Under the pieces are notes generated by a model that was given only the letters and a program-made list of their open reading frames with translations, ran no database searches and was not told where the DNA came from. 28,754 nucleotides of DNA from a virus: positions 1 to 28,754 of IMG/VR virus record IMGVR_UViG_3300007510_000051. One strand, given 5' to 3'. A program made the position numbers and the translations under genes. Shown one piece after another: positions 3,101-22,440 of the stretch; positions within the stretch are counted from its first letter, which is position 1, and every line of letters begins with the position of its first letter.

Positions 3101-3577
3101 ATGTTAATAAAATTCGAAGAAATAATAGAGGTGGTTTTACACCACGAAGGCGGTTATGTAAATGACCCTAAAGACCCAGGTGGTGAAACTAATTTTGGTG
3201 TTGCTAAAAGAAGTCACCCAGATGTAGATATAAAGAACCTTACAAAAGAAGGTGCAATAGAAATCTACAAGGAACACTATTGGGATAGAAATAAAGTAGA
3301 ATCTTTATCAGAAGATTTACGTCACATTTATTTTGATATGTGTGTAAATCAAGGTAGAGGAAGAGCTGTAAAGATTATGCAACGAGCGGCTAACGCTAAA
3401 GGTGCTGGTTTAAAGGTAGATGGTGGAATGGGGCCAAAAACAATAGCGGCTATGAAAGGTGTTGAGTTGGATAGAGTTAGAGCGTATCGTGTTAAATACT
3501 ATGCGGATTTAGTAACAAGAAAACCAGATTTAGAAAAATTTTACTTTGGTTGGTTTAGAAGAGCATTGGAAGTATAA
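3101..3577 (+). CDS. Endolysin, glycosyl hydrolase family 108 (N-acetylmuramidase type)
   Basis: A 158-residue protein, a usual length for a single-domain phage lysozyme of this family. The signature HHEGGYVNDPKDPGGETNFG is present at residues 14-33; E16 of EGGY is the expected catalytic acid. It is followed by IYKEHYWD and by FDMCVNQGRGRAVKIMQ, which match the family's YW and Asn-containing helices. No signal peptide or membrane segment is visible, so it would need a separate holin or pinholin, and none is seen in this window. The start has a CAGGAG ribosome site at 3088-3093. Its stop overlaps the next gene's ATG (TAATG). The predicted role is cutting peptidoglycan, either for lysis or as a virion-borne lysozyme. 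Confidence 0.9.
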   Translation: MLIKFEEIIEVVLHHEGGYVNDPKDPGGETNFGVAKRSHPDVDIKNLTKEGAIEIYKEHYWDRNKVESLSEDLRHIYFDMCVNQGRGRAVKIMQRAANAKGAGLKVDGGMGPKTIAAMKGVELDRVRAYRVKYYADLVTRKPDLEKFYFGWFRRALEV

Positions 3578-4455
3578 TGAACAAAAAAATCTTAAAGGAA
3601 ATGATAAAATCAGAACTTCGTGAGTTTCTTGAAGATACAGGAAAACTTTGTGTTGTTCTGATGGGTTTACCTGCGGCTGGTAAGTCTACTTGGATTAATA
3701 ATGAGGGTTCAAGTTACATACCAGGATTTACTGGATATAATGTAACTAATTCTGATTCACAAGTTATGGCTTTACAATATGATACTGCTATGTTACACTA
3801 CCAACACTTGTTGAAAGTAGCACCAGATGAAGAACGTAGTAGTGAACGGGGATTTGGTGAATTTGTTGGTAATTCGGCATATACATCAAATCGTGGTAAA
3901 ATAGTTACATTTCCTTTTGATTTTAATTGGTGGTTACAGAATAAAGATAAAGGTAGTAATAATTTTTATAAACTATTGTATAAACCATTTTATGCATCGT
4001 TCTTTGATATCAGAGATATAGCTAAAGAATATGAAAAGGATTTGTTTAAAACTAAAGTACATAAGGCTGGTAAACTTCTTGTAATAGACACAGTAGCGTC
4101 TAAACCACCAAAGATTTTACGTAGATTGAAACAAACTCGTGAAGAAGGTTATCATAATATTATTGTATATTTGGAAATAAATTCAGAATTAGCTGTTGCA
4201 AGAGATAAGTGGAGAGAGAAAAACGTTGGTAGAGGTGTTGGTGCTAAGATTATTGAAAACTATGCTAAATTGATGAGTGGTGCATATAAAGTATATGCTA
4301 AAGAAGGTAAAAATGATAGTGGTTTAGTTGATAGATTAATGTATTTTAAATGGTTTCCAGCCGGAACATCACCAATTAAGGGTGTTTGGAAAAAATTAGA
4401 AGATAAACGATATTCTATTAAAAGAAAACTTGATAAACTTAGGGATAGAAAATGA
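3577..4455 (+). CDS. P-loop kinase-like protein with capsid-targeting-type leader
   Basis: A 292-residue protein with a clear Walker A motif, GLPAAGKST, at residues 30-38. A hydrophobic strand ending in Asp (LLVIDTVAS) may act as Walker B, and a later segment (YLEINSELAVARDKWREKN) contains the basic lid-like region seen in zeta-toxin and polynucleotide-kinase-like P-loop enzymes. The first 20 residues (MNKKILKEMIKSELREFLED) form an amphipathic helix with a candidate protease site at residue 19. They precede the catalytic domain and resemble leaders on neighbouring proteins. The start is coupled to the endolysin stop, and the end overlaps the next gene by ATGA. The substrate is unknown; an RNA or nucleotide 5'-kinase role is an inference from the ligase-like partner next door. 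Confidence 0.72.
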   Translation: MNKKILKEMIKSELREFLEDTGKLCVVLMGLPAAGKSTWINNEGSSYIPGFTGYNVTNSDSQVMALQYDTAMLHYQHLLKVAPDEERSSERGFGEFVGNSAYTSNRGKIVTFPFDFNWWLQNKDKGSNNFYKLLYKPFYASFFDIRDIAKEYEKDLFKTKVHKAGKLLVIDTVASKPPKILRRLKQTREEGYHNIIVYLEINSELAVARDKWREKNVGRGVGAKIIENYAKLMSGAYKVYAKEGKNDSGLVDRLMYFKWFPAGTSPIKGVWKKLEDKRYSIKRKLDKLRDRK

Positions 4456-7109
4456 AGGGAATGAAAAAACTCGTAGAATCTATTGTTAGTGATACTCTTG
4501 GAGAATCCAAGGTACATGGTGCTGACCCTAAAGGTATAAACAGAATTGTTGGTGTTTATGTTGGTAGATTTCAACCATTTCACGCAGGACATTTTAATAC
4601 TTTTAAAGAAATGCAAAAAGAGTTTGGTGCTAAGGATACTTTTATAGCTACATCTAATGTAAGTGGTGGTGATAGACATCCTTTTAATTTTAAAGAGAAA
4701 CAAAAAATTATTAGTAAGATGTATAATATCAGAAAAAATCAAATAGTACAAGAAAAAAATGTTTATGCACCAATTAATATCTTGTCCAAATACGATAAAG
4801 AACACACGGCCGTCGCAGTTGGTTTGGGTGAAAAGGATGGTCAAAGACTTGGTGGTAAATATTTTAAACCATATACTGGCGATGTAACAAAATTGAAGGG
4901 TTTTGAAGATAACGGGTATATTTATATAGTACCAACCTTTAAGTTAAAGGTGGGTGGTTCTAATATAAGTGGAACACAAGTTAGAAAACTTTTAAGTTCC
5001 CCAGATATAGATGACAAGAAAAAGAAAAAATTATTTAAGGTTATTTTCGGTAAGTTTGATAACTCAATGTATGAATTTATTACGAACAGATTGATGTTCG
5101 ACCATAAGCGACCAAATGGTATACTTTTGACTAAGGAAATTGTAGCTAATTTTTGTGTTGACAATGATGTACCAAAAATGATACAAGAATCTTCTACTAC
5201 TTTAACTACCAATTCCAAACGTGGTGCTAATGCAGGTGGTGGAGCACCAGATGATGGGCCAGGAACATTTTATAGAAATTTTTCAGACTATTATAGAGTA
5301 GCTAAAGATGCAGTACCTTGGTTTATGCAAAAAACTGGTTGGTCTGTTGTTGAATTTATGATAAAAGATAAAGAACCAGAAGTTTTAGACCCTGACATGG
5401 ATTTTACTATGATTGATGACCCAATATCTAATGTTACGTTTGGAAGAGTTGGTTCTATACCAGGTAGTAAACACGCCTCGAAGGATTATTTAGAAAGATT
5501 AACAAGCATATCAGAAAGACTTGGTTGGGAAATACTTAAATGGATGCATAAAGATGGTAAAGGACTTGAGATATCCCAAAAACCAACAGAAGAATATGGT
5601 AAAGGTAAAGCCACATGGTCTTATAAAGGAACTAAAGGTAAGAAAGCTAAATTAAAAGAATCTGTAAAACTTAAAAAGAAAAAAGCGGGTGGTAGTAAAT
5701 ATAGATATACTGCTATAATTGATACACCAGTTTCTATAAATAATGTTGATGTAGGATTACATTCGGATGATAAAAGTGCTATAAAATCATTAAACGTATT
5801 GTTGAAAAGAAAGTTTCCAAAAGAAAAACCATTAAAAGAAAGAATTGATATTGTAGATGATGTAAAAAGGTTAATGACAGAAGGTGGAGCATATGGACAT
5901 TTAGCACATCCATTTGATGATAATAATTTAACATTCAGAGATTTCAGAACAATGATTACTAATACACTACAAGGTAATCTTAGTAAAGAAAAACCAGCTA
6001 CAGAAAAGACAGATGGTCAGAATATAATGATAAGTTGGAGAAATGGTAAACTTATAGCGGCTAGAAACAAAGGTCATTTGATGAATAAGGGTGCTAGTGC
6101 GTTAACTACGAATGGTATTAGTAAGATGTTTGCAGGTAGAGGTGATTTACACAAAGCTTTTGCAGGAGCTATGAGAGATTTAGAAGATGCTATAGGTGCT
6201 ATTAGTGATAAACAAAGAGATAAAATTTTTAAAGAGGGTGAACAATTTATGTCTTTGGAAATTATCTATCCAAAAACAGCAAATGTGATTCCATATGAGA
6301 AATCATTATTGATATTTCATGGTGTACTTCAATATGACGATAAAGGAAATGCAATAGGTGACTATTCTCAATTTGCAAGAATGTTAACTGGTATGATTAA
6401 ACAAGTTAACAAGGATGTACAAACTCAATATAAAATAGAATATCCACCAGTTGTAGAATTACCAAAAGTAAAGGACTTTTCAAATCGTAAAAAATTCTAT
6501 ATTGGTAAATTAAACACTTTACAGAAAAAATATAAGTTAAAACCTAATAACACGTTGGGTGACTATCATCAAGCTTTTTGGACAGAGTATATTAACAAAG
6601 CTTTAAAGAGAACTAAGACTAAATTACCAGAAAGTATGTTTATTAGATTAGTTAAAAGGTGGGCATTCTTTGATAAGTCATATAAGATTCCACAAATTAA
6701 AAAGGATATGAAAAAATTTCCAAAATTTTTAGATTGGGTTTTAACTACTGATAAAGAAGACCATAAAGCAAAATTTAAAGAAAATATTACACCTTGGGAA
6801 GACTTGTTCTTAGGACTTGGCACAGAGATAATGTTAAATATGACACAATTGTTGACCGCTAACCCAGACGAAGGAGCTCAAAAAATCAAAAAGGATTTAG
6901 AAGACACTATAAAAGCAGTTCAAAGTAGTGGTGATTTAAATTTGATAAAAAAATTAGAAAAACAATTAAAGAGATTAGAATCAATAGGTGGATTTGGTAC
7001 TATAACATCAACAGAAGGTATAACATTTACTTTTAATGGTAAGTTATACAAATATACTGGTACTTTTGCTCCAGTTAATCAAATTTTAGGTTTATTAAAG
7101 TACATATAG
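4452..7109 (+). CDS. Fusion of NMNAT-type nucleotidyltransferase and ligase-like KxDG nucleotidyltransferase
   Basis: An 885-residue multidomain protein. Residues 1-19 resemble a capsid-targeting leader ending LGE-S. Residues 31-180 form an HxGH nucleotidyltransferase of NMN adenylyltransferase type: GRFQPFHAGH at 38-47 and ISGTQVR at 172-178. The middle (about 200-500) is not recognised and includes a lysine-rich linker near 395-410. From about 515 it has covalent nucleotidyltransferase motifs like those of RNA/DNA ligases: KTDG with K519 as candidate AMP-accepting lysine, R538, motif III-like SLEIIYP (E603), motif IV-like TEGI at 854-857, and a terminal Lys motif (KLYKYTG). The roughly 250-residue gap between motifs III and IV is unusually long. 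It may join or modify RNA, or act on NAD; the reaction is not established. It overlaps the kinase-like gene by 4 nt. Confidence 0.75.
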   Translation: MKGMKKLVESIVSDTLGESKVHGADPKGINRIVGVYVGRFQPFHAGHFNTFKEMQKEFGAKDTFIATSNVSGGDRHPFNFKEKQKIISKMYNIRKNQIVQEKNVYAPINILSKYDKEHTAVAVGLGEKDGQRLGGKYFKPYTGDVTKLKGFEDNGYIYIVPTFKLKVGGSNISGTQVRKLLSSPDIDDKKKKKLFKVIFGKFDNSMYEFITNRLMFDHKRPNGILLTKEIVANFCVDNDVPKMIQESSTTLTTNSKRGANAGGGAPDDGPGTFYRNFSDYYRVAKDAVPWFMQKTGWSVVEFMIKDKEPEVLDPDMDFTMIDDPISNVTFGRVGSIPGSKHASKDYLERLTSISERLGWEILKWMHKDGKGLEISQKPTEEYGKGKATWSYKGTKGKKAKLKESVKLKKKKAGGSKYRYTAIIDTPVSINNVDVGLHSDDKSAIKSLNVLLKRKFPKEKPLKERIDIVDDVKRLMTEGGAYGHLAHPFDDNNLTFRDFRTMITNTLQGNLSKEKPATEKTDGQNIMISWRNGKLIAARNKGHLMNKGASALTTNGISKMFAGRGDLHKAFAGAMRDLEDAIGAISDKQRDKIFKEGEQFMSLEIIYPKTANVIPYEKSLLIFHGVLQYDDKGNAIGDYSQFARMLTGMIKQVNKDVQTQYKIEYPPVVELPKVKDFSNRKKFYIGKLNTLQKKYKLKPNNTLGDYHQAFWTEYINKALKRTKTKLPESMFIRLVKRWAFFDKSYKIPQIKKDMKKFPKFLDWVLTTDKEDHKAKFKENITPWEDLFLGLGTEIMLNMTQLLTANPDEGAQKIKKDLEDTIKAVQSSGDLNLIKKLEKQLKRLESIGGFGTITSTEGITFTFNGKLYKYTGTFAPVNQILGLLKYI

Positions 7110-7116
7110 GATAATT

Positions 7117-7678: not shown

Positions 7679-7900
7679 ATGGCTGTAAGTTCAATTACAG
7701 AGTTAAAGACAAAGATACAAACTCTTAGTGATAATAAGAGAGGAAATCTTAGAAATCCTACGTACCTATCAACTATTGCAGATTCATTACAAACAGAAAT
7801 TGTTAATTTGAATGCAAGTGGTAGTGACGCATCTTTAATTTCACAAACAGAAACTTATTTACGTAAAGTACAGACAATGTATTCAAGTTCAGTAGCATAA
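7679..7900 (+). CDS. Small protein between zinc-ribbon protein and terminase
   Basis: A 73-residue, mostly helical protein with no recognised domain (MAVSSITELKTKIQTLSDNK at the start, Ser/Thr-rich). It has a strong AAGGAG site at 7666-7671 with 7-nt spacing, and its stop overlaps the terminase start (TAATG), so it is a real, coupled gene. A small terminase (gp16) would be expected here in a T4-type order, but 73 residues is short for that and the resemblance is not visible, so the function is left open. Confidence 0.65.
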   Translation: MAVSSITELKTKIQTLSDNKRGNLRNPTYLSTIADSLQTEIVNLNASGSDASLISQTETYLRKVQTMYSSSVA

Positions 7901-9477
7901 TGAGTGATAAACAAGACTTAAAACAATTAGTTAGGTCTGAATACGTCAAGTGTGCCAAAGACCCAGTATACTTTTTAAAGAAGTATTGTATGATACAGCA
8001 TCCAATTAAAGGCAAAATACCATTTCAATTATGGGATTTTCAAGAAAAAACATTGGAGGACTTTAAAGATAATAGACTTAGTGTTATTTTAAAAGCACGT
8101 CAGTTGGGTATATCAACATTAACAGCTGGATATTCACTTTGGTTAATGACATTTCATCAAGATAAAAATATTCTTGTTATTGCTACAAAACAAGATACTG
8201 CTAAAAATCTTGTAACAAAAGTTCGTGTTATGCATGCTAATTTACCATCTTGGTTAAAACAAAGTTGTGTTGAAGATAACAAATTATCTTTGAGATATAA
8301 AAATGGTTCACAAATTAAAGCTGTAGCAAGTTCGGAAGAAGCTGGTCGTTCAGAAGCACTATCTCTATTAGTTCTTGATGAAGCTGCATTTATAGACAAG
8401 ATTGATACAATATGGGCTGCCGCATCACAAACACTATCTACGGGTGGTCAATGTATTGCACTATCTACACCAAATGGTGTTGGTAATTGGTTTCATAGAA
8501 CTTGGATGGATGCCGAAGATGGGATAAATGGATGGAACTTTATAAAATTACATTGGACAATACACCCAGAAAGAGGAGAAGAGTGGAGAAGTAAACAAGA
8601 TTTATTATTAGGGCCATCGTTAGCCGCTCAAGAGTGTGATTGTAGTTTTATAACTTCTGGTCAAACTGTAATTGATGGTCTTATAATAGAAGATTATAGA
8701 GAAAATTTTGTAAAAGAACCAATTGAAAGAAGAGGATTTGATTCTAATATGTGGATATGGGAATATCCAGATTATTCTAAAGATTATGTGTTAAGTGCTG
8801 ATGTTAGTAGAGGAGATGGTACAGACTTTTCAGCGTTTCATGTGATTGATGTAGAGTCAATGAAACAAGTAGCAGAATATAAAGGTAAAATTGGAACTAA
8901 AGATTTTGGTAATATGTGTGTAAGTGTTGCTACAGAGTATAATAAAGCATTATTAATTGTGGAAAACAATAATATTGGTTGGTCTGCTATACAAACCATA
9001 ATAGATTCAGAATATCCGAATTTATTTTATACATCAAAAGATTTAATGTATGTAGATACAGCAAAACAATTGACAAATAGATATAGAAGTCAAGATAGGA
9101 ACATGGTTCCAGGATTTAGTATGACAGCAAAGACAAGACCACTTGTTATTGCTAAATTAGAGGAATATTTCAGAGAAAAGTCAGTAAGCGTTAATTCACA
9201 ACGATTAATTGATGAGTTGTTTGTATTTATATATAAGAATAGTAGAGCTGAAGCTATGGTAGGGTACAATGATGACCTTGTTATGAGTTTAGCTATAGGT
9301 TTGTGGGTTAGAGATACGGCTCTAAGATTGAGAGCAGAAGGTATAGAACTTACAAAACGTTCATTCGATTATTTTCAATCCCATCAAGGTGTTTATGATA
9401 CCGAAGATGTCAATAAAAACGATAGTTGGCAAATGGATGTTGGTGATGGTAAAGAATCATTAGAATGGTTAATATAA
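7900..9477 (+). CDS. terL: Terminase large subunit (gp17-like)
   Basis: A 525-residue packaging motor and nuclease. The ATPase half shows a Walker A-type motif ARQLGIST at residues 66-73, Walker B LLVLDE with D160 and E161, and the coupling-type motif ALSTPNG at about 187-193. The nuclease half shows the RNase H-like aspartates: LSADVSRGDGTDF with D301, and YNDDLVMSLAIGLW near the C-terminus. These are the standard features of T4-type TerL, which docks on the portal, translocates DNA with ATP and cuts concatemers. The length is slightly below T4 gp17. It is coupled to the small gene upstream by a 1-nt overlap and followed after 13 nt by the portal gene. Confidence 0.95.
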   Translation: MSDKQDLKQLVRSEYVKCAKDPVYFLKKYCMIQHPIKGKIPFQLWDFQEKTLEDFKDNRLSVILKARQLGISTLTAGYSLWLMTFHQDKNILVIATKQDTAKNLVTKVRVMHANLPSWLKQSCVEDNKLSLRYKNGSQIKAVASSEEAGRSEALSLLVLDEAAFIDKIDTIWAAASQTLSTGGQCIALSTPNGVGNWFHRTWMDAEDGINGWNFIKLHWTIHPERGEEWRSKQDLLLGPSLAAQECDCSFITSGQTVIDGLIIEDYRENFVKEPIERRGFDSNMWIWEYPDYSKDYVLSADVSRGDGTDFSAFHVIDVESMKQVAEYKGKIGTKDFGNMCVSVATEYNKALLIVENNNIGWSAIQTIIDSEYPNLFYTSKDLMYVDTAKQLTNRYRSQDRNMVPGFSMTAKTRPLVIAKLEEYFREKSVSVNSQRLIDELFVFIYKNSRAEAMVGYNDDLVMSLAIGLWVRDTALRLRAEGIELTKRSFDYFQSHQGVYDTEDVNKNDSWQMDVGDGKESLEWLI

Positions 9478-9490
9478 GGAAGAGGATAAA

Positions 9491-11314
9491 ATGGCCGATA
9501 AAAGTTTAAGAGCTAGATTAAAAAGATTATTTTCCACAAATGTCATTGTTAGGCATGCAGGGGGGAGAACTTTAAAAGTAGCTGACACCAATAGGGTACA
9601 AGCTATAAACCAAGATATGACAGATAGGTTTACTAAGTTGTATAACAATATGTCACCAATGGGTTGGGGTACAAAAAATAACACATTAGCATCTTCACAA
9701 CGAGTTGGTTTATTTCAAGACTATGAATCAATGGATAATGATTCCATTTTATCATCTGCACTTGATATATACGCAGACGAATCAACGATGAGGTCTGAAT
9801 ATGGTGAGATATTAAATATACGTTCAGATTCGGATAATATACATGATATTTTACACAATCTTTATTATGATGTTTTGAATATAGAATTTAATTTATGGCC
9901 ATGGATTCGTAATATGTGTAAATATGGTGATTTCTTTTTGAAGTTGGATATTCATGAGAAATATGGAGTTACAAATGTAGTTCCACTATCTGCATATGAT
10001 GTTACACGTTCAGAGGGTGATGACCCAGAGAATCCTTATTATGTAAAATTCATTATTGAAAATGGACAAGATAGACATACAGTTAGAATGAATCCAAACA
10101 ATAATGAATTAGAAAATTATGAAGTAGCTCACTTTAGATTATTATCCGATAGTAATATGATACCATATGGAAAGTCTATGATTGAAGGAGCTCGTAAATC
10201 TTGGAAACAATTAATTCTTATGGAAGACGCTATGTTAATACATCGTATCATGAGAGCACCAGAAAAGAGAATATTCAAGATTGATATTGGAAACATACCA
10301 CCAAATGAAGTTGATAACTATATGCAACGAATCATTAATAAAATGAAGAAAGCTCCAGTTATTGATAAAGATACTGGTGATTACAATTTAAAGTATAATG
10401 TCCAAAATATAACAGAAGATTTTTTCTTACCAGTTCGTGGTGGTGATAGTGGTACGGAGATTGATACGGCCGCTGGATTGACATTTGAAGCTGTGGAAGA
10501 TATCGAATATTTAAGAAACAAAATGTTGGCCGCACTAAAGATACCGAAAGCTTTCTTGGGATATGAAGAAGAGGTTAATGCGAAAGCAACTTTGGCCGCT
10601 GAAGACGTTAGGTTTGCTCGTACTATTGAAAGAGTACAAAGAATTGTTGTTAGTGAGTTAACTAAAATTGGTATAATTCATTTATATGCACAAGGTTACC
10701 AAGATGCAGACCTTGTAAATTTTGAGTTGGGTCTAACTAATCCATCAATGATATATGAACAAGAAAAACTTGAATTGTGGTCTACAAAAATAGATTTAGC
10801 GGCTAATATGAAAGATAATAAGTTGTTACCAACTGAATTTATGTATGATGAAATTTTTGGATTTACAGCTCAAGAAAAGAAAAAGGTAAGAGAACAATTA
10901 GTTGATGACCAAAAAAGAATGTTCAGATACGAGTCAATTGAACAAGAAGGTGCAGACCCAGCAGCGGAAGGTAGTTCAGGTGAGGATGATTTTGGTGAAG
11001 ATGATTTTGGTGATAGTATGGCTAGAACAGGAACAGAACTTGGGCCAGAAGGTGGAAGTCCAGAAGGTGGATGGGAAGGTGCTGGTAGGCCAAAGAGACC
11101 ACCAAAATTTGGCAAAGATGGTTCGGCTAGAGGAAGAGACCCACTTGGTGCACACGATATGAAGAAGGGAGCTAGTACTTTAGCTTTAGCACATTTAGAT
11201 AAACTAAAAAAGTCACTGGGAAATAGTGGTTTACAATTATTGAAAGAAACCACTGCTTTAGATGAAGAGTATAAACGTGAAGTAAAAGATACTTTAGATA
11301 ATAACGATAAATAA
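9491..11314 (+). CDS. gp20: Portal protein (gp20-like)
   Basis: A 607-residue portal of T4 gp20 type. It contains characteristic segments such as SSALDIYADESTM, the WPWIRNMCKYGDFFLKLD region, and IPKAFLGYEEEVNAKATLAA, all strongly conserved in T4-like portals. Twelve copies form the DNA gate at one capsid vertex in this family. The C-terminal 110 residues are an unusual low-complexity Gly/Glu/Asp/Pro stretch (about 490-560, with GEDDFGEDDFGD) followed by a Lys-rich helix. Purine-rich AAGGA and AGAGG sites precede the ATG. The gene ends before a 57-nt gap containing the TATTTATA motif, so the next genes may form a new transcription unit. Confidence 0.93.
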   Translation: MADKSLRARLKRLFSTNVIVRHAGGRTLKVADTNRVQAINQDMTDRFTKLYNNMSPMGWGTKNNTLASSQRVGLFQDYESMDNDSILSSALDIYADESTMRSEYGEILNIRSDSDNIHDILHNLYYDVLNIEFNLWPWIRNMCKYGDFFLKLDIHEKYGVTNVVPLSAYDVTRSEGDDPENPYYVKFIIENGQDRHTVRMNPNNNELENYEVAHFRLLSDSNMIPYGKSMIEGARKSWKQLILMEDAMLIHRIMRAPEKRIFKIDIGNIPPNEVDNYMQRIINKMKKAPVIDKDTGDYNLKYNVQNITEDFFLPVRGGDSGTEIDTAAGLTFEAVEDIEYLRNKMLAALKIPKAFLGYEEEVNAKATLAAEDVRFARTIERVQRIVVSELTKIGIIHLYAQGYQDADLVNFELGLTNPSMIYEQEKLELWSTKIDLAANMKDNKLLPTEFMYDEIFGFTAQEKKKVREQLVDDQKRMFRYESIEQEGADPAAEGSSGEDDFGEDDFGDSMARTGTELGPEGGSPEGGWEGAGRPKRPPKFGKDGSARGRDPLGAHDMKKGASTLALAHLDKLKKSLGNSGLQLLKETTALDEEYKREVKDTLDNNDK

Positions 11315-14692: not shown

Positions 14693-15480
14693 TGAAATTA
14701 AAAGATATAGTTCAAGGTAAAGTTTATACTGATAAAGATAGACCACCATTTCAAGTAAAGGAAGATTTGAGTAAACAAGGATTTGCTGAATTAAAAGGTC
14801 AAGCAAGATATCTTGCAGGTTCAGTAAAAGATTTAGTAAAAGGTATCCAACAAAAAAATGATGATGTTATAGAAACAGAATTGGATTACATAATTGCCAA
14901 ATCAAAGTTAATGAAGGATATGTTAAGTGATAAAAGATATAACGAATCCGTAAATGAAGGTAAATTCAAAACAACACTTCTTCCACAAAAGAAAGATATT
15001 AACAGACTTAAAATAAGATTTCAAAATGACCCTCGTAGATTATACACATTAAAAGATATATCAGTAGGACATAAAGTAAAAGGTGACCCATCAGGAACAA
15101 GTTATTTGTTTGTAGCACCAGGTAATAGAAAAGAACGATTTACAAAAGAAACTTGGCATTTAGCTAATGAAAAAGGTTGGTTATCACTTGAATCCATAAA
15201 TGAAGCGGCTTTTAGTTCACCAGAAGCACAACAAATTTTAAATCAAGATATTACGAAAATGTCAAAAATTTTAGGTAAAGCATCTCAACAAATAATTAAA
15301 ATAATGATGGATGGTGTAAAGGGTGGTAGATATGATGCTATGGATATTGTAAGAGGAATTGATACTGGTCCATTAAATAGAACACATGAGGGTGAAAGAC
15401 CTTTTATGAAAATGTTATGGAGAAAAGTTAGAGATGGTTTTCGTAGATATTCACCAAATAAAAAATTGAAAAGAAAATGA
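14692..15480 (+). CDS. Protein of unknown function in the protease-scaffold cluster
   Basis: A 262-residue basic protein. It begins MKLKDIVQGKVYTDKDRPPF and has a helical segment at about 31-90, a beta-type central part (about 105-165) and a helical C-terminus that becomes very basic (RYSPNKKLKRK). SINE-A at about 168-172 is a potential protease site between the central and C-terminal parts. No known domain is recognised. It is coupled at both ends: TAATG with the 57-residue gene before it and an ATGA overlap with the gene after it. Confidence 0.62.
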   Translation: MKLKDIVQGKVYTDKDRPPFQVKEDLSKQGFAELKGQARYLAGSVKDLVKGIQQKNDDVIETELDYIIAKSKLMKDMLSDKRYNESVNEGKFKTTLLPQKKDINRLKIRFQNDPRRLYTLKDISVGHKVKGDPSGTSYLFVAPGNRKERFTKETWHLANEKGWLSLESINEAAFSSPEAQQILNQDITKMSKILGKASQQIIKIMMDGVKGGRYDAMDIVRGIDTGPLNRTHEGERPFMKMLWRKVRDGFRRYSPNKKLKRK

Positions 15481-16256
15481 TTAAAAAGATTGGTAGTAAG
15501 TGGGCAGTCTATCCTAAAAAAGGCGGGAAACGACTTGGAACACATGATTCAAAGGAAAAAGCGTTGAAACAATTAAAAGCTATAGAGATATCCAAAAGGA
15601 TGCGTTCAGAAGTAGAAAAGATAGTAAAAGAAATACTATTAGAAGCTGATACTGGGGCTGTAGTTGGTGGTGACTTTGTTGGTAGTGTTGCCGGAGATGT
15701 ATCTAACACTATTCAACAATCTGGTTATGATAAATCATATGTTGTCATTGGTAGAACATTTTTTAAAAGAGATGATGGTGGTGGTCACACATATAATTCT
15801 TTATATACAGTTTTATTACATAAAGATAAGGATGAGATTGTTATAAATGCTTTAAATTTGGGTACTGGTGATTCTGCAACTGTATTTAGAAGTAATATTG
15901 AATCTTTTGGACAAGATACACGATTTCCAAGTGATGTTCGTAATATTGTTTATGAGTTTTTGGAGATACCAGACCCATTATTTCTTGAAGCTTGGGGTAG
16001 AGGTACATCAAGTTGGTTCGGAGGTGGAGGCCCGTCTAAACCAATGGATAAGAATATGCCAAAGAAATTTATAATCAATATACCATCTTTAAAAGATGCT
16101 AAAAAGATGTTAAAACAATTAAAAGTCAAGTGGAAATCAGTTGTTGACGATTTAACCAAACCTGGTATTTGGTATTTTAGAAATAGAAAAGGTGATACAG
16201 TTGGTGGTTGGAAACAAACACAAAAGACTTTATACTATGAACGAAGACTTTTTTAA
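15477..16256 (+). CDS. Protein with small KWAVYPKKGGK-type domain and embedded leader-like helix
   Basis: A 259-residue protein. Residues 1-40 contain KWAVYPKKGGKRLGTHDSKE, a short domain common in viral and phage proteins (K-W-x-V-x-x-K-x-G-K-x-L-G-T-H). Residues 42-57 (MRSEVEKIVKEILLEA) match the leader helices of neighbouring proteins and carry LLE-A at 54-57, so protease cleavage would detach the small domain. The mature part (about 57-259) is Gly-rich, then beta-type, and ends in an aromatic-rich segment. The function is unknown. It overlaps the upstream gene by ATGA and is followed by a short gap with a TATTTATA motif. Confidence 0.62.
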   Translation: MIKKIGSKWAVYPKKGGKRLGTHDSKEKALKQLKAIEISKRMRSEVEKIVKEILLEADTGAVVGGDFVGSVAGDVSNTIQQSGYDKSYVVIGRTFFKRDDGGGHTYNSLYTVLLHKDKDEIVINALNLGTGDSATVFRSNIESFGQDTRFPSDVRNIVYEFLEIPDPLFLEAWGRGTSSWFGGGGPSKPMDKNMPKKFIINIPSLKDAKKMLKQLKVKWKSVVDDLTKPGIWYFRNRKGDTVGGWKQTQKTLYYERRLF

Positions 16257-16277: not shown

Positions 16278-17660
16278 ATGGAAAAGTCTAAAAAATGGAA
16301 GACGTTGGTTCAAGTTTCTAAAGAAGCCAATAGTTTTTCTGGTAAAAAGGGTGATAAGTTTGATGGAAGAGGATACTTCCCAAACAAAAATGCTAAATTG
16401 GCTAATGAAGTAGAAGAAAAAGCTAAAGCAAAAGTACAAGGTAGTGCAATAAAACCTAAAAGAATTAAGAGTGTATATGAAGACTATGAAGAAGAAGTTC
16501 TTGAAAAACAAATTGGAAATGGAATGACAAGTGTTCCATCAAAGATGAAAAAACATAAAGTTGATAGTACACAACAAAGTGGAGCTGGAATTAAATATAT
16601 AAATCCAGATAATAATTATAAACAAATTTTTGGAGAAAGTAAAATGAAAAAATCTCAATTTAAATATATGATAAAACAAATGATAGGTGAAATTTTAGAA
16701 GGAAAAGGTAAAGCTCCTGGTTCCAAATCTGCTGGTGGGGCTTCACCAGCTCTACCTGGTGGAATATCTAAAGGTGGATATACATTACGGTCTTATACTT
16801 CATTAGGTGGTGATGCTGGTGAAAGAGCAGGTTCAGAAAGAGGTTGGAAAGGTGGAAATGTTGGGTCAAGAAAATCGTTTAGAACTACTAAAGCTTCTGC
16901 ACTAGCGTCTATAATAAAAGGTCAGAACTTAGGTAAAATTGATGCTTGGAGAACGGATGCATTAACTGATAAGAGAGCAATTATCGGAAAATCTAAATAC
17001 CAAGGTACAAGAACTCCAGGTGGTAGAGGAACTAAACAAAAAGCTGTTAGTGGTACACTTGACAATCTAGCTTCAATACGTGCGTCTGATGATGTTAAAA
17101 GAAAATCCCAAGGTGGAAGGTCAACCGCATTAGGTGGTGCTAAAATGAAGGTGAGTGCTTCTTACATCAACCAAAAGTCTGCTGCTAAAAGTGCTTATAA
17201 CTCGGCAATAAATGCTGAGATTACGGCTCTACAAACTCTTCAAGCTGCTTATATAAAAGGTGGTGGTCAGACAATTGAAAAAACTTATGTAGCTATACAA
17301 AATTTAATTGATGATTTAGGATATAAAAAAGAAGAATATGCATTAAGATGGGATTTCGCGACAGCGGCTTATAATGGTAATACAACTGCTATGAATAACG
17401 CTCGTACAAATATAGAATCTAAAAGAGATACAATAAAGAAGAGAGCTAAGTCTGTCGGAGAAGACCCGGCCGGGTCTATCGGTGGAAGAACTCAAGAATG
17501 GGAAAGAGGTATCAAAGTGAGAGAAGGTGATAAAGTTACCGATGGAAAACAAACTTATCAAGCTACCATACCTAAAGGAGCAAGAGACCATGAATGGATG
17601 TGGTCTAATATACCACCTGCCGAATCAATGCGAGACGGCTTCTGGCAACCATCAAAATAA
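16278..17660 (+). CDS. Two-part protein; C-terminal 338 residues are a paralogue of the next gene
   Basis: A 460-residue frame. The ATG at 16278 has no ribosome site. An internal ATG at 16644 (residue 123) has a good GGAG site 8 nt upstream and opens with MKKSQFKYMIKQMIGEILEG, a capsid-targeting-type leader with ILE-G ending at residue 20, so a 338-residue product starting there is likely. The upstream 122 residues are protein-like and charged. From about residue 205 the sequence aligns by eye with the next gene (AWRTDALTDKRAIIGKSKYQ, VSASYINQKSAAKSAYN, YVAIQNLIDDLGYKKEEYAL). The last 50 residues (WERGIKVREGDKVTDGKQTY) look like a small added beta domain. The function is unknown; an internal head protein is inferred. 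Confidence 0.62.
   Translation: MEKSKKWKTLVQVSKEANSFSGKKGDKFDGRGYFPNKNAKLANEVEEKAKAKVQGSAIKPKRIKSVYEDYEEEVLEKQIGNGMTSVPSKMKKHKVDSTQQSGAGIKYINPDNNYKQIFGESKMKKSQFKYMIKQMIGEILEGKGKAPGSKSAGGASPALPGGISKGGYTLRSYTSLGGDAGERAGSERGWKGGNVGSRKSFRTTKASALASIIKGQNLGKIDAWRTDALTDKRAIIGKSKYQGTRTPGGRGTKQKAVSGTLDNLASIRASDDVKRKSQGGRSTALGGAKMKVSASYINQKSAAKSAYNSAINAEITALQTLQAAYIKGGGQTIEKTYVAIQNLIDDLGYKKEEYALRWDFATAAYNGNTTAMNNARTNIESKRDTIKKRAKSVGEDPAGSIGGRTQEWERGIKVREGDKVTDGKQTYQATIPKGARDHEWMWSNIPPAESMRDGFWQPSK
16632..16635 (+). promoter_or_regulatory. Internal ribosome binding site for a nested start at 16644
   Basis: GGAG is followed after 8 nt by an in-frame ATG. The downstream N-terminus matches the start of the next, paralogous gene, supporting real initiation here. 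Confidence 0.55.
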
Positions 17661-17673: not shown

Positions 17674-18387
17674 ATGAACCAAACTGATATTAGAAAAATA
17701 ATTAAAGAATGTATTCGTGAACTTATGGAAGCACCAGTTTCCAAAGGTGGTCATCCCGTTCAAGATTACTCTAAAGTAGCTGGTGGTGAAACAGGTCAAA
17801 GAAAACAAGATAAAGGTTTATTTGACTTAGCAACCAAGGTTTCGAAAGGAATAACAAGTTCTGATATAGATGGATGGAGACATCAAGCTTTGTTGAGTGG
17901 TGATAAATTTATTGTACCTAAATCCAAATATCAGAAACAACAAACTAAAACAAAATCTGTTAGTGCTAATATAGATAGTTTAGCGGCTATTAGGGGTAAA
18001 GAAGACCAAGAAAGACGTGCAACTGGTGGTAGAGTTGGATACACTAAAGTTTCTGCAACATATATCAATAACCAATCTAATGCTAAAGCTACATATAATA
18101 AAGCAATAGATGATGAGATAAAAAGATTGGGTGCATTACAATCACAAACAAAAGCTGGTGATAAAAATTATGTTGCATTACAAAATTTAATAGAAGATTT
18201 AGAAATAAGAAAAGAAGAATACTCATTAAAGTGGGAATTTGTTACGGCGGCGTTCAATAATGATGAAAATAAGATGAATAATGTTCGGTCTGATATACAA
18301 GCCAAAAGAGATGAGAGATTAAAACGAGCCAAGTCAGTTGGTACTGACCCAAAGGGTGAAGAAGGAAAAGAACAACCCAAAAAATAG
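17674..18387 (+). CDS. Paralogue of the preceding gene, with capsid-targeting-type leader
   Basis: A 237-residue product. I chose the ATG at 17674 because AAAGG lies just upstream and the previous stop is at 17658-17660; the longer in-frame extension would run back into that gene. Residues 1-20 (MNQTDIRKIIKECIRELMEA) give LME-A at 17-20. The rest parallels the preceding protein: GWRHQALLSGDKFIVPKSKY, SANIDSLAAIRG, VSATYINNQSNAKATYN, YVALQNLIEDLEIRKEEYSL and a final KRAKSVGTDPKG. It lacks the extra C-terminal beta segment of its partner. Mostly helical and basic, with no enzyme motif. Inferred internal or head-core protein. Confidence 0.7.
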   Translation: MNQTDIRKIIKECIRELMEAPVSKGGHPVQDYSKVAGGETGQRKQDKGLFDLATKVSKGITSSDIDGWRHQALLSGDKFIVPKSKYQKQQTKTKSVSANIDSLAAIRGKEDQERRATGGRVGYTKVSATYINNQSNAKATYNKAIDDEIKRLGALQSQTKAGDKNYVALQNLIEDLEIRKEEYSLKWEFVTAAFNNDENKMNNVRSDIQAKRDERLKRAKSVGTDPKGEEGKEQPKK

Positions 18388-18397: not shown

Positions 18398-19051
18398 ATG
18401 AAAAAGAAAGTATTAAAAGAATTTTTTATGGCAGGTGGTGTAGTCACTGGAAAGCCATTTAAGGTGAATGACGAAGTTCGTGGTTCTGGTATTAAATTAT
18501 CGTCCTTGGTCAAGGAAGGAAACCCAGAGTCTTGGTCTGAATCAGAAGCAACTATTAATGTTAATCGTTTTCTTGAAGACGTTAAGAATTATGGTCATAT
18601 AGGTAAAGATATTTATAGAGAAACAAATTTAAAAGACATAGCTCTTAAACTATCAGAAATTGTTGAGTCTGCAAAGATTCATACTATGAATGAAACTGAT
18701 GATTGGTTTGATAGAGTGTCGGTAAAACGAAATATGAAAGAACTTGGTGGTTTAGCTACTCAATTTGTTAAAGCTGCGAAAGAATCAAATTTAATGCAAC
18801 GTAGAATGGAAACTCTTTATGAAGATATGGGTAACATTTTAAGTAGATATTACGAAATAGAGGATTCTAATACTTTAAGTGAAGCTGATGTAAAAGACTT
18901 AGATAAACCAGAGAGTGGTGACAAAGAAGCATATCAGAAATTCTTTCAAGCGGCTATGAAGAAGTTTGGTGTTGATTCACCAGATGAACTTAGTGATGAA
19001 GATAAGAAAGATTTCTTTAATTGGGTAGATAAAAACTGGAAAAATTCATAA
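18398..19051 (+). CDS. Protein with conserved C-terminal FF...VDKNWK motif
   Basis: A 217-residue product starting at the ATG at 18398, which has AGGGG 7 nt upstream; a longer frame upstream overlaps the previous gene and is not needed. The N-terminus (MKKKVLKEFFMAGGVVTGKP) is leader-like but its LKE site is early (residues 6-8), so cleavage is less certain. Residues 80-170 are helical. The C-terminus has AYQKFFQAAMKKFGVDSPDE followed by DFFNWVDKNWK, a pattern I know from uncharacterised T4-like head-cluster proteins. It is coupled to the next gene by TAATG. The role is unknown. Confidence 0.68.
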   Translation: MKKKVLKEFFMAGGVVTGKPFKVNDEVRGSGIKLSSLVKEGNPESWSESEATINVNRFLEDVKNYGHIGKDIYRETNLKDIALKLSEIVESAKIHTMNETDDWFDRVSVKRNMKELGGLATQFVKAAKESNLMQRRMETLYEDMGNILSRYYEIEDSNTLSEADVKDLDKPESGDKEAYQKFFQAAMKKFGVDSPDELSDEDKKDFFNWVDKNWKNS

Positions 19052-19371
19052 TGACAAAACATTTTTTAAAAGAAAATTACGAAAGATTATTCAAAACACA
19101 ATTATCAGAATCAACTGATATATTTTTAGGAAAAGAAATACCAATTAGTAAACTTAAAAAGTTTGGTAAGATGAAAGGTAAGGTATTTTACTTAGATGGT
19201 ACGAAACAAGGTATGTTAGCAGACATTGAGGGTAAAAACGTTGTTGGTTTTAAAATAACAGCTGGAATGAGAACAGATGATGATGAGAATTTTCATACGT
19301 CACTCGAAGATTTAGCTGATGCACTAAAAATGAAACTATCAGATGACTATGGAGATTACGAACTTAGTTAA
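19051..19371 (+). CDS. Small protein with leader-like N-terminus
   Basis: A 106-residue protein coupled to the gene before it (TAATG). Residues 1-21 (MTKHFLKENYERLFKTQLSE, then S) form an amphipathic helix with LSE-S at 18-21, matching the position of the sites in neighbours. The mature part is a compact alpha/beta sequence (KVFYLDGTKQGMLADIEGKN) with an acidic C-terminus. No known domain is recognised. It lies just before the bS21 gene. Confidence 0.62.
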   Translation: MTKHFLKENYERLFKTQLSESTDIFLGKEIPISKLKKFGKMKGKVFYLDGTKQGMLADIEGKNVVGFKITAGMRTDDDENFHTSLEDLADALKMKLSDDYGDYELS

Positions 19372-19392
19372 AAAAAGAAAAGTAGGTTTTAT

Positions 19393-19599
19393 ATGGCAAT
19401 AAAGGTAGATGTAAGAGATAATAAGATAGAGTTCGCTCTACGAAAGTTTAAGAAAAAAGTAAAAGAGTCTGGGTTATTACTCGAATTGAGAGAAAGGGAG
19501 TTCTATAAGAAGCCTTCTCATATAAAAAGACTCAAAAAATCTAAGGCAAAACTTAGAATTAAATATGATAAGTTAAGAATGGAACGGGAAAAAACCTGA
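19393..19599 (+). CDS. rpsU: Ribosomal protein bS21 homologue
   Basis: A 68-residue protein, the usual length for bS21. The family signature is clear: IEFALRKFKKKV (12-23), SGLLLELREREFYKKPS (26-42), then a basic Lys/Arg tail. In bacteria bS21 binds the 30S platform near the anti-Shine-Dalgarno region of 16S rRNA and helps initiation. Phage copies are known from marine T4-like phages and large metagenomic phages and are thought to bias host ribosomes towards phage mRNA. Here it lies within the head gene cluster, directly before the scaffold and capsid genes. AGTAGG precedes the ATG. It uses AT-rich codons like its neighbours, with no sign of recent transfer. Confidence 0.9.
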   Translation: MAIKVDVRDNKIEFALRKFKKKVKESGLLLELREREFYKKPSHIKRLKKSKAKLRIKYDKLRMEREKT

Positions 19600-19625: not shown

Positions 19626-19631
19626 AGCTGA

Positions 19632-19639: not shown

Positions 19640-19650
19640 TAAAAATCAAA

Positions 19651-19730: not shown

Positions 19731-19755
19731 GAATCCTTTAATTTGGAGAATTAAA

Positions 19756-20805
19756 ATGGACGACCTTTTGAAAAATGCAATCGCAGATGCAAAAGCAGTT
19801 CGTGAGACCGCGTTGGAAAACGCCAAAGTAGCTTTACAAGAAGCCTTTACTCCAAGACTAAATCAAATGCTTTCACAAAAGATTCAGAATGAAGTCGAAG
19901 ACGAATTAGAAGATGATGAATTTTATGATGAAGAAGACGAAGAAGCTGAAGAAGAAGAAGCAGAAGCTGAAGACGCTGTAGAAGATGAAGCTGAAATAGA
20001 TGCTGAAGAAGGTGCAGAAGAAGAAGCTGAAGAAGCTGGTGAAGAAGAAGCTGAAGAAGCCGAAGAAGAACCAGAAGCTGAAGAAGGTGATGAAGAAGAA
20101 GCAGGTGATGAAGAAGATGACGACCTTGACCTTGAAGCAGTTCTGAGAGAATTAGAATCAGACCTGACTGAAGAGGAAGAGGAAGATGAATTCGCTTCAC
20201 CTGAAGAAGAAGACGAAGTTGACCTTGGTGATGCACCAGTTGACATCGCTGCTGATGATTCTGAGTTCATGCCTGAACCTGCTAATGATGAAGGTGATTT
20301 AGATTTAGATGCCGAAGCACCAGCTGATGAAGAGGGTGAAGAGGATATGGAAGAGGAACTTGACCTTGAAGAAGTGTTGAAAGCTCTACAAGAAGAAGAG
20401 GAAGAAGAGGAAGAAGAAGTGGATGAAATTACTCAACTTAAATCTGAACTTGGAGAACATCGCGAAGTAGTTAAGTATCTACGGTCTAAATTAAATGAGG
20501 TCAATCTACTCAATGCTAAACTCTTGTTTACTAACAAGTTGTTCAGGAATCATTCTATGACTAATGAACAGAAAATTAAAGTCATTGAGCAGTTTGATAG
20601 AGCAAAGAATCTACGTGAAGTTAAGTTGGTATTTTCAACTATAGCTGAATCGTTTGGTTCTTCTGCTAAAAAATCTGTAAATGAGAACAAAGGTTCAGCT
20701 TCTAAAGCTGTTGCTTCTACAAAACCTAAAACCGAAACTAAAGAAGTTTTGGCTGAAGGTTCTGAGTTGAAGAACAGATTTCAGAAACTAGCTAAAATTC
20801 TTTAA
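19756..20805 (+). CDS. gp22: Prohead core scaffolding protein (gp22-like)
   Basis: A 349-residue protein. The N-terminal helix (1-42) contains KVALQEAFTPRL with a candidate protease site LQE-A at 27-30. Residues about 46-220 are an extreme Glu/Asp/Ala-rich stretch. The C-terminal domain has KYLRSKLNEVNLLNAKLLFT followed by NEQKIKVIEQFDRAKNLREV, characteristic of gp22 scaffolds in T4-like marine phages. In T4 this protein forms the core around which gp23 assembles and is then digested by gp21. The acidic insert is much longer than I would expect from T4 gp22 (269 aa in total). It lies directly before the capsid gene, has a GGAG site, and its ATG is preceded by a structured leader. Confidence 0.9.
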   Translation: MDDLLKNAIADAKAVRETALENAKVALQEAFTPRLNQMLSQKIQNEVEDELEDDEFYDEEDEEAEEEEAEAEDAVEDEAEIDAEEGAEEEAEEAGEEEAEEAEEEPEAEEGDEEEAGDEEDDDLDLEAVLRELESDLTEEEEEDEFASPEEEDEVDLGDAPVDIAADDSEFMPEPANDEGDLDLDAEAPADEEGEEDMEEELDLEEVLKALQEEEEEEEEEVDEITQLKSELGEHREVVKYLRSKLNEVNLLNAKLLFTNKLFRNHSMTNEQKIKVIEQFDRAKNLREVKLVFSTIAESFGSSAKKSVNENKGSASKAVASTKPKTETKEVLAEGSELKNRFQKLAKIL

Positions 20806-20829
20806 TAACAACCGTTTAGGAGAAATTAA

Positions 20830-22440
20830 ATGTCTAAAAATAGTAATTTAAAATCTATTGAAGGCCTTATGGATGGCTATAATCCATATCAGGAACGGTT
20901 AGAGGAAACTCGTAAGTTAGTAGGAAAGTGGGAGCCCACTGGATTACTCGAAGGAATAGATTCCGAAACTAAAGTCATGAGTATGGCTACTCTTTTGGAA
21001 AACCAAGCTCGTCAGTTAATTGATGAGTCTTCTAAAACAAGCACAACTGCTAACTCTGAAGAGTGGAGTGGTGTTGCTCTTCCTTTGGTACGTAGGATTT
21101 TTGGTGAATTAGCTGCACAAGATTTCGTATCTGTTCAGCCAATGAACCTTCCTTCAGGACTTATTTTTTACCTTGATTTCAAATATGGTACCGCACAACC
21201 AGGTCACACTCAAAACTCAGATGTTCATGGTAACACTTCTGGTTCTGATGCTGACGCTTCTGGTGGTCTATATGGGGCAGGTAAATTTGGATATTCAATC
21301 AACGAATCTGTTGCAACAATAACAAGCTATAGTTCAGCTTCTGTTGTATGGGGTGATGTTGATTTCGAACCATCTTTGAGTTCTTCTCTTGATAACCTGA
21401 GAAAAGTTACTGTCGCTCTTGCGGACGATGGTATGACAAATCCAGATTTCGATGGCGTTAGAGCTTTTGAAATTTCTGGTTCATCAACCGCGGCTATCGC
21501 TGACTACTATCCTGCTTACTCAAGTTGGGATGGTTCAAACTGGAACTTTGTTGTAAAGACTTCTGGTGCGTACGAAGTTGATGGAAATATCTATGTGAAG
21601 TATCACAAAGCACCAACCGATGTTACTCGTGGTGATTTTGAAGATTCTTCACCAACCGAACCAGCAACGGATATTGGTATTCCAGAAATAGATATCCAAA
21701 TGAAATCTATTCCGATTGTTGCAAAAACTCGTAAATTGAAAGCTGTATGGACTCCTGAGTTAGCTCAAGACCTTAACGCTTATCATTCTGTTGACGCAGA
21801 AGCTGAGTTAACTGCAATGTTATCTGAGTACATTTCAATGGAAATTGATTTGGAAATCCTTGATATGTTGATGGGTAATGCTAATGCTAAAACAGAACGT
21901 TGGTCTGCTAGAGTAGGATATGAGTATAATTCTTCTACCGCTCTTTTCGCAGAATCATCTGCTAATGCATCAGCTTATGTAAAAGGAACTTGGTTCCAGA
22001 CTCTCGGTAATAAGATACAAGCTGTATCTAATGCTATTCATCAGAAGACTCTACGTGGTGGAGCTAACTTTATGGTCGTAAGTCCTGAAGTTGCTACTAT
22101 CATTGAGTCTATCCCTGGATATGCATCTGATTCAGATGGTAATGCTGCTAATAGTTCATTCGCAATGGGTGTTCAAAAAGTTGGACTATTGAACAACCGT
22201 TTTACGGTCTACAAGAATCCATACATGCACGAGAACGTAATACTTGTTGGTTTCAGAGGAAGTAATTTCTTAGAAACTGGTGCTGTATACGCTCCGTATG
22301 TACCACTTATCATGACTCCGTTGGTCTATGACCCAACAAACTTTACGCCAAGAAAAGGTGTTATGACTCGTTATGCGAAGAAAATCGTAAGACCTGAGTT
22401 CTATGGTAAAGTTATCGTTGCTGATGTTAATTACGTTTAA
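20830..22440 (+). CDS. gp23: Major capsid protein (gp23-like)
   Basis: A 536-residue T4-type HK97-fold capsid protein. The N-terminal propeptide resembles T4 gp23: GKWEPTGLLEGI (32-43), LLENQARQLIDE (55-66). The best match for the T4 cleavage point (after residue 65 in T4) is IDE-S at 64-67. The mature part begins with VALPLVRRIFGELAAQDFVS and VQPMNLPSGLIFYLDFKYG, hallmark segments of gp23. The C-terminal part (YDPTNFTPRKGVMTRYAKK) is also typical. AGGAG lies 7 nt before the ATG. Codons are noticeably richer in C-ending forms (AAC, TTC, TAC) and CGT than in neighbours, as expected for the most abundant virion protein. A strong terminator follows. Confidence 0.96.
   Translation: MSKNSNLKSIEGLMDGYNPYQERLEETRKLVGKWEPTGLLEGIDSETKVMSMATLLENQARQLIDESSKTSTTANSEEWSGVALPLVRRIFGELAAQDFVSVQPMNLPSGLIFYLDFKYGTAQPGHTQNSDVHGNTSGSDADASGGLYGAGKFGYSINESVATITSYSSASVVWGDVDFEPSLSSSLDNLRKVTVALADDGMTNPDFDGVRAFEISGSSTAAIADYYPAYSSWDGSNWNFVVKTSGAYEVDGNIYVKYHKAPTDVTRGDFEDSSPTEPATDIGIPEIDIQMKSIPIVAKTRKLKAVWTPELAQDLNAYHSVDAEAELTAMLSEYISMEIDLEILDMLMGNANAKTERWSARVGYEYNSSTALFAESSANASAYVKGTWFQTLGNKIQAVSNAIHQKTLRGGANFMVVSPEVATIIESIPGYASDSDGNAANSSFAMGVQKVGLLNNRFTVYKNPYMHENVILVGFRGSNFLETGAVYAPYVPLIMTPLVYDPTNFTPRKGVMTRYAKKIVRPEFYGKVIVADVNYV

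Follow-up and report, generated by a model that had tools for sequence, protein, structure and literature searches.

Short N-terminal leaders on head-region proteins of a far-T4 phage group as candidate capsid-targeting sequences

Results

Unrelated proteins of the head region share short N-terminal leaders

The virus record IMGVR_UViG_3300007510_000051 (28,754 nucleotides; hereafter the window, meaning this whole stretch of DNA) carries head genes in a T4-like order: terminase, T4-type portal, S77 protease, a candidate for the acidic scaffold, and a capsid protein of gp23 type. Many proteins encoded among these genes, in the window and in related phages, begin with a short leader that ends in (I/L)-x-E and is followed by bodies of many different kinds. 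Two classes of leader, of about 10 residues (class S) and about 22 residues (class L), were found. The leaders and their modularity are real. Judged by their sequences, they are quite probably capsid-targeting sequences (CTSs) that are cut by the S77 protease, with the proteins behind them being packaged and ejected. This extends an original prediction, made from the letters of the window, that eight such leaders mark a set of packaged, processed and ejected proteins: the leaders themselves were confirmed overall and the packaging interpretation is supported, while cleavage, presence in the virion and ejection are what we infer from them.

The head genes and leaders placed below are all on the plus strand. 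They include genes for the terminase large subunit of gp17 type (7900-9477; Pfam Terminase_6N, 6.3e-12), the portal protein of gp20 type (9491-11314; Portal_T4, 5.7e-69), the prohead protease of gp21 type (13307-13927; S77, 2.9e-31), a scaffold candidate in the position of gp22 (19756-20805; without Pfam match) and the major capsid protein of gp23 type (20830-22440). At 108.9 bits, compared with a Pfam cut-off of 27, the protease belongs to the S77 family, as had been proposed from the sequence. The capsid protein shares 56.6% identity with that of Microcystis phage Mel-JY01, 56.5% with that of LR756508.1 (a 484-kb record), 54.1% with that of the Flavobacterium phages immuto and 38.1% with that of Rhodothermus phage RM378. 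A scan of viral contigs yielded at least 598 relatives, the best 80 of which were made into loci; we call this group far-T4, a name used in the literature. The gene set comprised 39 records, into which 38 of the 43 records of a first class-L profile search were taken, and protein bodies were clustered from residue 31 onward. Near-duplicate contigs were kept in the class protein counts, the class-S position figures, the hold-outs, the orthologue listings and the held-out window test; G001, G002, G003, G008, G009 and G028 were set aside for the counts of paralogues, of the KFGEPLPTL motif and of conserved Glu columns.

Using iterated profiles (E 0.1 or less), we assigned 119 proteins in 38 body clusters, with 108 distinct leaders, to class S (MIKLKxLLxE, then the predicted cut), and 57 proteins in 33 body clusters, with 55 distinct leaders, to class L (MKIxxxxLRxIIxEEIxxxLxE, then the predicted cut). 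At the same threshold, reversed and shuffled N-termini gave no match, internal segments gave 0 (class S) and 10 (class L), and C-termini gave 0 and 1, respectively; several of the internal class-L matches resemble leaders preceded by a different segment or starting from an internal Met. Both classes are thus short N-terminal segments on unrelated bodies, with remote homology between clusters being possible and one cluster (cluster 0) joining several families. Profiles A2 and A3 were built on 31 of 39 and 24 of 33 segments.

Within class S, the conserved positions are K3 (in all 108 distinct leaders), L4 (102), L or I at residue 7 (106), L or I at residue 8 (101) and E10 (99). Class L has [ILVM]xE in columns 16-27 of 45 of 54 leaders (shuffle mean 20.7; reached by 0/1000 shuffles), its Glu falling mostly at column 22 or 18, so that an (I/L)-x-E-like end is found in both classes. 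A second short motif, (R)KFGEPLPTL, stands behind several class-S leaders (L197, L250 and other contigs) and occurs in 22 proteins of 10 body clusters.

A search for the leader in related phages had been proposed with the original prediction, and a profile built from one set of phages did detect it in another. For class L, training on LR756508 alone recovered 25 proteins of 11 clusters in the remaining records, and training on those records recovered 18 proteins of LR756508. For class S, a profile from five contigs recovered 84 proteins of 26 clusters outside them; since the training rows were picked with a joint profile, these three hold-outs are not fully independent. Their controls gave 0, 0 and 1 matches for reversed N-termini, 3, 1 and 0 for internal segments and 0, 1 and 0 for C-termini. 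Among 12 phage records, class S matched LR756508, immuto and Mel-JY01, with no match in T4, KVP40, P-SSM2, S-PM2, HTVC008M, lambda, phiKZ, LR756511 or RM378; as the class-S profile finds only three places even in LR756508, its absence from T4, the cyanophages and the others is weak evidence. Profile-supported leaders are few in Mel-JY01 and immuto (1 and 4, respectively). Class L showed the same pattern of records, except for one weak match in T4 (E 0.015), which lies outside the internal proteins, at 73008 within the annotated gene trna.3. A 24-residue consensus compared with phage records by tblastn found only LR756508, a poor yield owing to the low power of short queries.

The similarity exceeds chance and is strongest among head-region N-termini

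Of the 21 window genes that start at 3577 or later and precede the capsid gene, 11 have (I/L)xE with its Glu at residue 8-28, compared with 4.97±1.75 for shuffled N-termini, a count reached by 1 of 500 shuffles. The other 12 plus-strand genes, capsid included, show it in 4, compared with 2.18±1.13 (62/500 shuffles). These 11 genes coincide only partly with the eight predicted cases: the genes at 7679, 11372, 12681, 13307 and 18398 are among them, and the gene at 3577 enters through LKE8 and LRE16, not FLE19. Taking one protein per body cluster (without G001-G003), the motif was found in 68 of 128 head-region clusters, compared with 36.3±4.3 after shuffling.

N-termini were also compared without any leader model. 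Each body cluster contributed a single protein, drawn once, and residues 2-28 were scored for ungapped similarity between clusters (117 head clusters; without G001-G003 and proteins under 75 residues). Pairs scoring at least 30 numbered 214 per 10,000 among head-region N-termini, compared with 26 for shuffled sequences, 25 for internal segments, 52 for C-termini and 26 for N-termini elsewhere, or about eight times more similar pairs between different body clusters than among shuffled, internal or non-head sequences. Leader conservation relative to non-head genes had been set in advance as a condition that could refute the packaging interpretation, and the result did not refute it. The C-termini are slightly high; the sole C-terminal pattern tried was found in two proteins.

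The leaders are also concentrated around the head genes (Fisher p 1e-27). In 29 records without near-duplicates (G001, G002, G003, G008, G009, G028 and W01-W04 left out), 99 of the 435 plus-strand genes in the first 15 kb upstream of the capsid gene carry one, as do 10 of 117 at 15-25 kb and 18 of 703 elsewhere. Similarly, LR756508 has 21 of its 24 class-L genes no more than 50 kb from the capsid gene, compared with 101 of all its 624 plus-strand genes (p 5e-15).

The same body can follow different leaders. Counting near-duplicates, 26 of the 38 other records contain a match to the body of the window gene at 14692-15480, and the 14 relatives listed have at least four quite different starts ending in xE (MLKLKDLLNE, SIYKKLMIE, FKRFLLE and WKDFRLNE), while further relatives begin with another domain. 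Its C-terminal stretch, SPEAQ...KILGKASQQ...MMDGVKGG, likewise has relatives behind several leaders in other records. Mutually homologous P-loop proteins (GGPGSGKS) with class-S starts are found in several contigs.

A class-S DNA pattern was run on the viral collection irrespective of head genes. At least 120 stretches contained it, and a frame of at least 60 codons starts at 146 of the 151 matches, compared with 54 stretches in the whole collection for a codon-reversed control, 19 of which open such a frame. In 41 leader records of at least 20 kb, drawn from 80 loci of the at least 120, and in 28 of the 54 controls, we looked for S77, which was present in 20 of 41 leader records compared with 7 of 28 controls over the Pfam cut-off (8 of 28 at E 0.001); a T4 portal, counted in the leader records only, was present in 23 of 41. 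Fourteen of the 18 leader records with neither were examined: in 11, leaders are supported by the profiles and 24-63% of the genes are shared with the far-T4 set, and the other three have no supported leader and share 9-15%. Protease and leaders occur together in the window, and their association across records is moderate.

Capsid, scaffold candidate and protease keep (I/L)xE sites of their own

Conserved Glu columns near N-termini of the head proteins were searched for sites of the same form. The capsid protein has two: LLE41-G (20950-20952), where L-x-E followed by G is kept in 33/33 genomes, and IDE66-S (21025-21027), where [ILV]-x-E followed by A, S or T is kept in 33/33. The scaffold candidate has LQE29-A (19840-19842; L-x-E then A/S in 31/32 genomes) and the protease INE21-S (13367-13369; I/L-x-E then S/A in 20/21 genomes). 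The remaining conserved Glu columns have different residues at P3. These sites fit the rule of a gp21-like protease, and cleavage at them is predicted.

Leaders of the window

All eight predicted Glu positions proved correct: FLE19-D (gene at 3577), LGE18-S (4452), LDE25-A (12228), LNE19-G (13930), ILE19-G counted from the ATG at 16644, LME19-A (17674), LSE20-S (19051) and the internal LLE56-A (15477). When the window and its three closest relatives were left out of training, the class-L profile, scored on 29 window N-termini, supports the leaders at 3577, 17674 and 12228 and, more weakly, those at 16644 and inside 15477; 4452 has the motif and two close orthologues, 13930 represents a third leader type, and 19051 has the motif alone. 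The carriers had been described as otherwise unrelated, which does not hold for 16278 (from residue 123) and 17674, these being paralogues.

The class-L leader of gene 3577-4455 occupies 3577-3633 (MNKKILKEMIKSELREFLE, predicted cut before D; held-out E 2.3e-5), and its FLE-D is retained in the orthologues of G002 and G003; the body is P-loop kinase-like (AAA_33, 7.5e-5; Zeta_toxin, 0.0028; both under the Pfam cut-off). The leader of the nucleotidyltransferase gene 4452-7109 lies at 4452-4505 (MKGMKKLVESIVSDTLGE, predicted cut before S) and matches neither the class-S nor the class-L profile. Its orthologues in G002 and G003, the closest non-identical records, end in LDE-A, and more distant ones have different starts. 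The body matches CTP_transf_like (2.4e-6, over the cut-off) and the cytidyltransferase family phrog_395 (1.8e-14); by eye, it contains GRFQPFHxGH and, further on, a KTDG stretch resembling an RNA/DNA ligase motif.

Between portal and protease, an interval that in T4 holds gp67 and gp68, gene 12228-12470 begins with a class-L-like leader ending in LDE-A (12228-12302; held-out E 0.0068), and 9/9 homologues found have L-x-E followed by A/V. Directly behind the protease, gene 13930-14517 starts with the third leader type, MxxxMWxxWKxFR...LNE-G (13930-13986), which matches neither class profile; the pattern MWxxW(K/R)x(F/Y/W)R is found near the N-terminus of 14 proteins in two body clusters (window and near-duplicates included), and the C-terminal part of the 13930 protein matches the head scaffolding family phrog_3503 (2.1e-9). 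Gene 14692-15480 has a degenerate class-S start, MKLKDIVQ, that lacks Glu10 (14692-14715; held-out class-S E 0.0085, covering residues 1-7 only). In gene 15477-16256, the class-L-like leader is internal, ending in LLE56-A (15597-15644; held-out class-L E 0.17), and the orthologues in G002 and G003 end in EVLTE-A; residues 2-51 match phrog_3684 (1.2e-11).

The class-L leader MKKSQFKYMIKQMIGEILE (16644-16700, predicted cut before G; held-out E 0.07) begins at an internal ATG of the open reading frame (ORF) 16278-17660. A GGAG site lies just upstream of this ATG and none at the ATG at 16278, so counting from 16644, as originally done, is sound. The GGAG lies in codons for FGESKM, which two orthologues retain. 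In the alignment of the two paralogues (38% identity, E 7e-51), the first residue of the 17674 protein falls on residue 123 of the 16278 protein, and the ORF may give two products, one from the poor start at 16278 and one from the good start at 16644. Gene 17674-18387 carries the class-L leader MNQTDIRKIIKECIRELME (17674-17730, predicted cut before A; held-out E 1e-4), and its identical copy G001_22 was found by the LR756508-only profile (E 0.0068). A weak AlphaFold2 model of this protein (overall pLDDT 50) has a helix at residues 3-17, with confidence below 50.

Inside gene 18398-19051 is a class-S-like segment, IKLSSLVKE-G (18491-18517; E 0.33 only); 24 of 28 homologues in this family have [LIVM]xE near the N-terminus, many of them with a class-S-like start there. 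The candidate leader of gene 19051-19371 ends in LSE20-S (19051-19110), and among the 38 other records the gene is present only in the identical G001. Class-L matches of the window terminase (E 0.055) and of the G031 terminase were rejected as false positives.

Proteins behind the leaders

Pfam and PHROG families were searched with 75 of 79 representatives. Matches over the Pfam cut-offs were found for NUDIX (5.7e-11), for PAP2 (5.7e-10) and for a P-loop kinase or zeta-like leader protein of LR756508 (3.2e-9 and 8.4e-9); a zincin-like stretch (0.0035) and a Lar-like restriction alleviation match (0.00027) are weaker or under the cut-off. At E 0.01, 19 Pfam families were seen, each with a single member, and at least 56 of the 75 representatives had none.

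One family in LR756508 comprises 23 ORFs, one of them a 55-residue piece, and 19 have [ILVM]xE ending at residue 8-13. Its members L084, L095-L102 and L108 lie at 179-441 kb of that record, many with class-S-like starts, and L236 40-3260 holds four tandem relatives, one partial. The alignment retains YRG, RxxS and a late Glu, a pattern that may be ADP-ribosyltransferase-like (the class of T4 Alt), which is a guess by motif. Of the 17 PDB entries matched in a profile search with E up to 1 (the best at 0.0016), most are designed or helical proteins and none is named as an ADP-ribosyltransferase; comparison with T4 Alt by hhalign was not significant (E 0.36, with LYRG set on LYRS); and the PHROG matches were to families without an assigned function, except for one weak 'endonuclease'. 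The AlphaFold2 model of an L236 protein is poor (pLDDT 40, 4 sequences).

Other genes of the window

A bS21 ribosomal protein homologue is encoded within the head gene cluster (19393-19599) and has matches in 17 other records; all 14 homologues listed sit 1.4-1.65 kb upstream of the capsid gene. Directly behind the capsid gene is an ORF that by eye looks HNH-endonuclease-like (22490-22954); T4 has segD behind gene 23. Two adjacent similar genes at 1059-3060 both end in segments that resemble intramolecular chaperones of endosialidase type. At 27400-28754, there is a 412-codon open stretch rich in GSSG/GTDGTSG repeats; ORFs in the other frames of this region are probably not real genes.

Discussion

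Most likely, the tagged proteins are sent into the head, clipped and delivered into the bacterium at infection. A short N-terminal segment, probably an amphipathic helix, would bind the prohead core; with the core enclosed by the completed shell, the S77 protease would then cut behind the Glu of (I/L)xE, the precursors of capsid, scaffold and protease probably being cut in the same way; and the freed protein would remain in the head and leave with the DNA at ejection.

Several observations weigh against this. Body clusters far from the head genes also show an excess of the motif, if a weaker one (274/903, compared with 222.3±12.0; 0/200 shuffles), and some leader genes lie far from head genes. 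The residue behind the class-S Glu is broad (N, S, K, D, E, A or R), compared with G, A, S or T at the capsid, scaffold and protease sites, and the family of 11372 keeps L/I-x-E followed by L/V in 21/21 genomes despite having no leader, so a conserved motif alone is no proof of a cut. With a threshold of E 1, the first class-L profile matched only 12 of the 43 far-T4 records searched (RM378 weakly, 0.07), so some far-T4 fragments do not show it. Neither profile matches the leaders of T4 itself, and a sequence relationship to these was not found. The enrichment of S77 in the DNA-pattern scan is only moderate, the control records often being T4-like too. Three records have a T4 portal and no S77 match, with portals at or near contig ends: that of G053 is cut by the contig end, and G040 and G064 leave about 2.7 kb behind it. 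As portal and protease are 1.7 to 4.3 kb apart across the scan records, these three decide nothing. Virion proteomics of a close relative was not found in the literature, RM378 not being included in that search.

A rather unlikely alternative is that the leaders dock onto the prohead core or a late structure and stay uncut, possibly with no ejection, the carriers then being core or assembly proteins. It would suit the leader families of 12228 and 18398, which are conserved neighbours of portal, protease and scaffold, as well as the scaffolding match at the C-terminus of 13930, and there is a precedent in SPN3US, which leaves some head proteins unprocessed although their giant-phage homologues are processed (PMC5694885). 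Yet L or I at residue 8 and Glu10 are among the best conserved class-S positions, and in T4 these serve processing and not targeting, according to PMC9026906; in addition, some leader bodies are enzyme-like.

We regard it as improbable that the leaders are recombination remnants, that is, short gene starts spread by gene conversion without a selected protein function. Codon identity at identical residues is above expectation in five of six marine-contig tests (for example 0.74 compared with 0.48 in G013; the exception is G005, 0.56 compared with 0.58), so leader cassettes have been exchanged, and recently. In LR756508, however, where amino-acid identity is 32%, codon identity is near expectation (0.46 compared with 0.40), which is the picture given by old leaders maintained as protein sequence. 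The 30 bases preceding the leaders exceed random pairs in similarity by no more than 0.08, and the conserved columns are hydrophobic residues and Glu. Least probable is chance. Phage genes rich in A+T often begin with lysine-rich amphipathic stretches, the (I/L)xE motif is weak enough for shuffling to produce it in about 5 of the 21 window genes, and 19051 has nothing beyond it. Against this, the similarity is absent from other N-termini of the same genomes, from shuffles, reversals and internal segments, and the codon-reversed DNA pattern had fewer matches, most of which open no frame of 60 codons or longer. These controls refute chance for the set, not for single cases.

If the leaders do direct packaging, they could form a portable address code, and we incline, if only slightly, toward the following taken jointly: that far-T4 phages mark the proteins destined for the head by the first 10-22 codons of their genes; that tens of LR756508 proteins are tagged, including most of the 23-ORF family that looks ADP-ribosyltransferase-like by motif only; that leaders are exchanged between bodies; and that at least one gene (16278/16644) may yield both tagged and extended forms. 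Genes of unknown function could then be assigned as delivered at infection by sequence alone. Phage proteins that enter the host with the DNA are known for few phages, and being able to read such a leader in marine and jumbo phages that have not been cultured would yield an inventory of probably delivered proteins, mostly of unknown function; the leader could also supply new tags for loading proteins into phage heads. A literature search covering neither preprints nor most subscription journals found no report of these leaders in the far-T4 group.

Comparison with known systems

The closest parallel is the CTS of T4 internal proteins and Alt, which is cut by gp21. Like the far-T4 leaders, it is a short N-terminal segment with an (I/L)xE end on unrelated bodies; class S shares its Glu at residue 10 and hydrophobic residues at 4, 7 and 8, and the S77 protease is present in the same clade. 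Unlike T4, the far-T4 phages add a second class of about 22 residues with other spacing, have internal copies behind other segments, and in LR756508 have about 30 profile-supported carriers rather than a handful. T4 ipII and ipIII start with MKTYQEFIAE. The shell protein gp24, which is not a packaged effector, starts with MAKINELLRES, the T4 start most similar to class-S variants such as MAKLKDLLKE, with Glu at 10.

For T4 IPIII, PMC9026906 reports that the first ten residues suffice for packaging, with residues 4 and 7 acting in targeting and 8 and 10 in processing. Class S conserves these positions, and class L is longer and spaced otherwise. On this basis, the leaders would work like the T4 leader, and the relation is one of kind, not of demonstrated descent. 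In giant phages of the phiKZ type, several head proteins are likewise processed behind Glu by a related protease, according to PMC5694885 and PMC9026906, but the motif is A-x-E or S/A/G-x-E, and neither leader profile matched the phiKZ record. NAD/ADP-ribose enzymes of myophages, NUDIX proteins among them, are predicted to be packaged (PMC9503650), which agrees with a NUDIX protein among the leader carriers; packaging was deduced there from gene clusters and head-protein fusions, here from a leader. Finally, T-even internal proteins are diverse defence proteins with only the targeting sequence in common (PMC3012670, PMC12373910), many of their genes were found through the leader, and three of those in T4 are anti-restriction proteins (PMC12373910). 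The leaders described here would extend this picture of T-even internal proteins to another clade.

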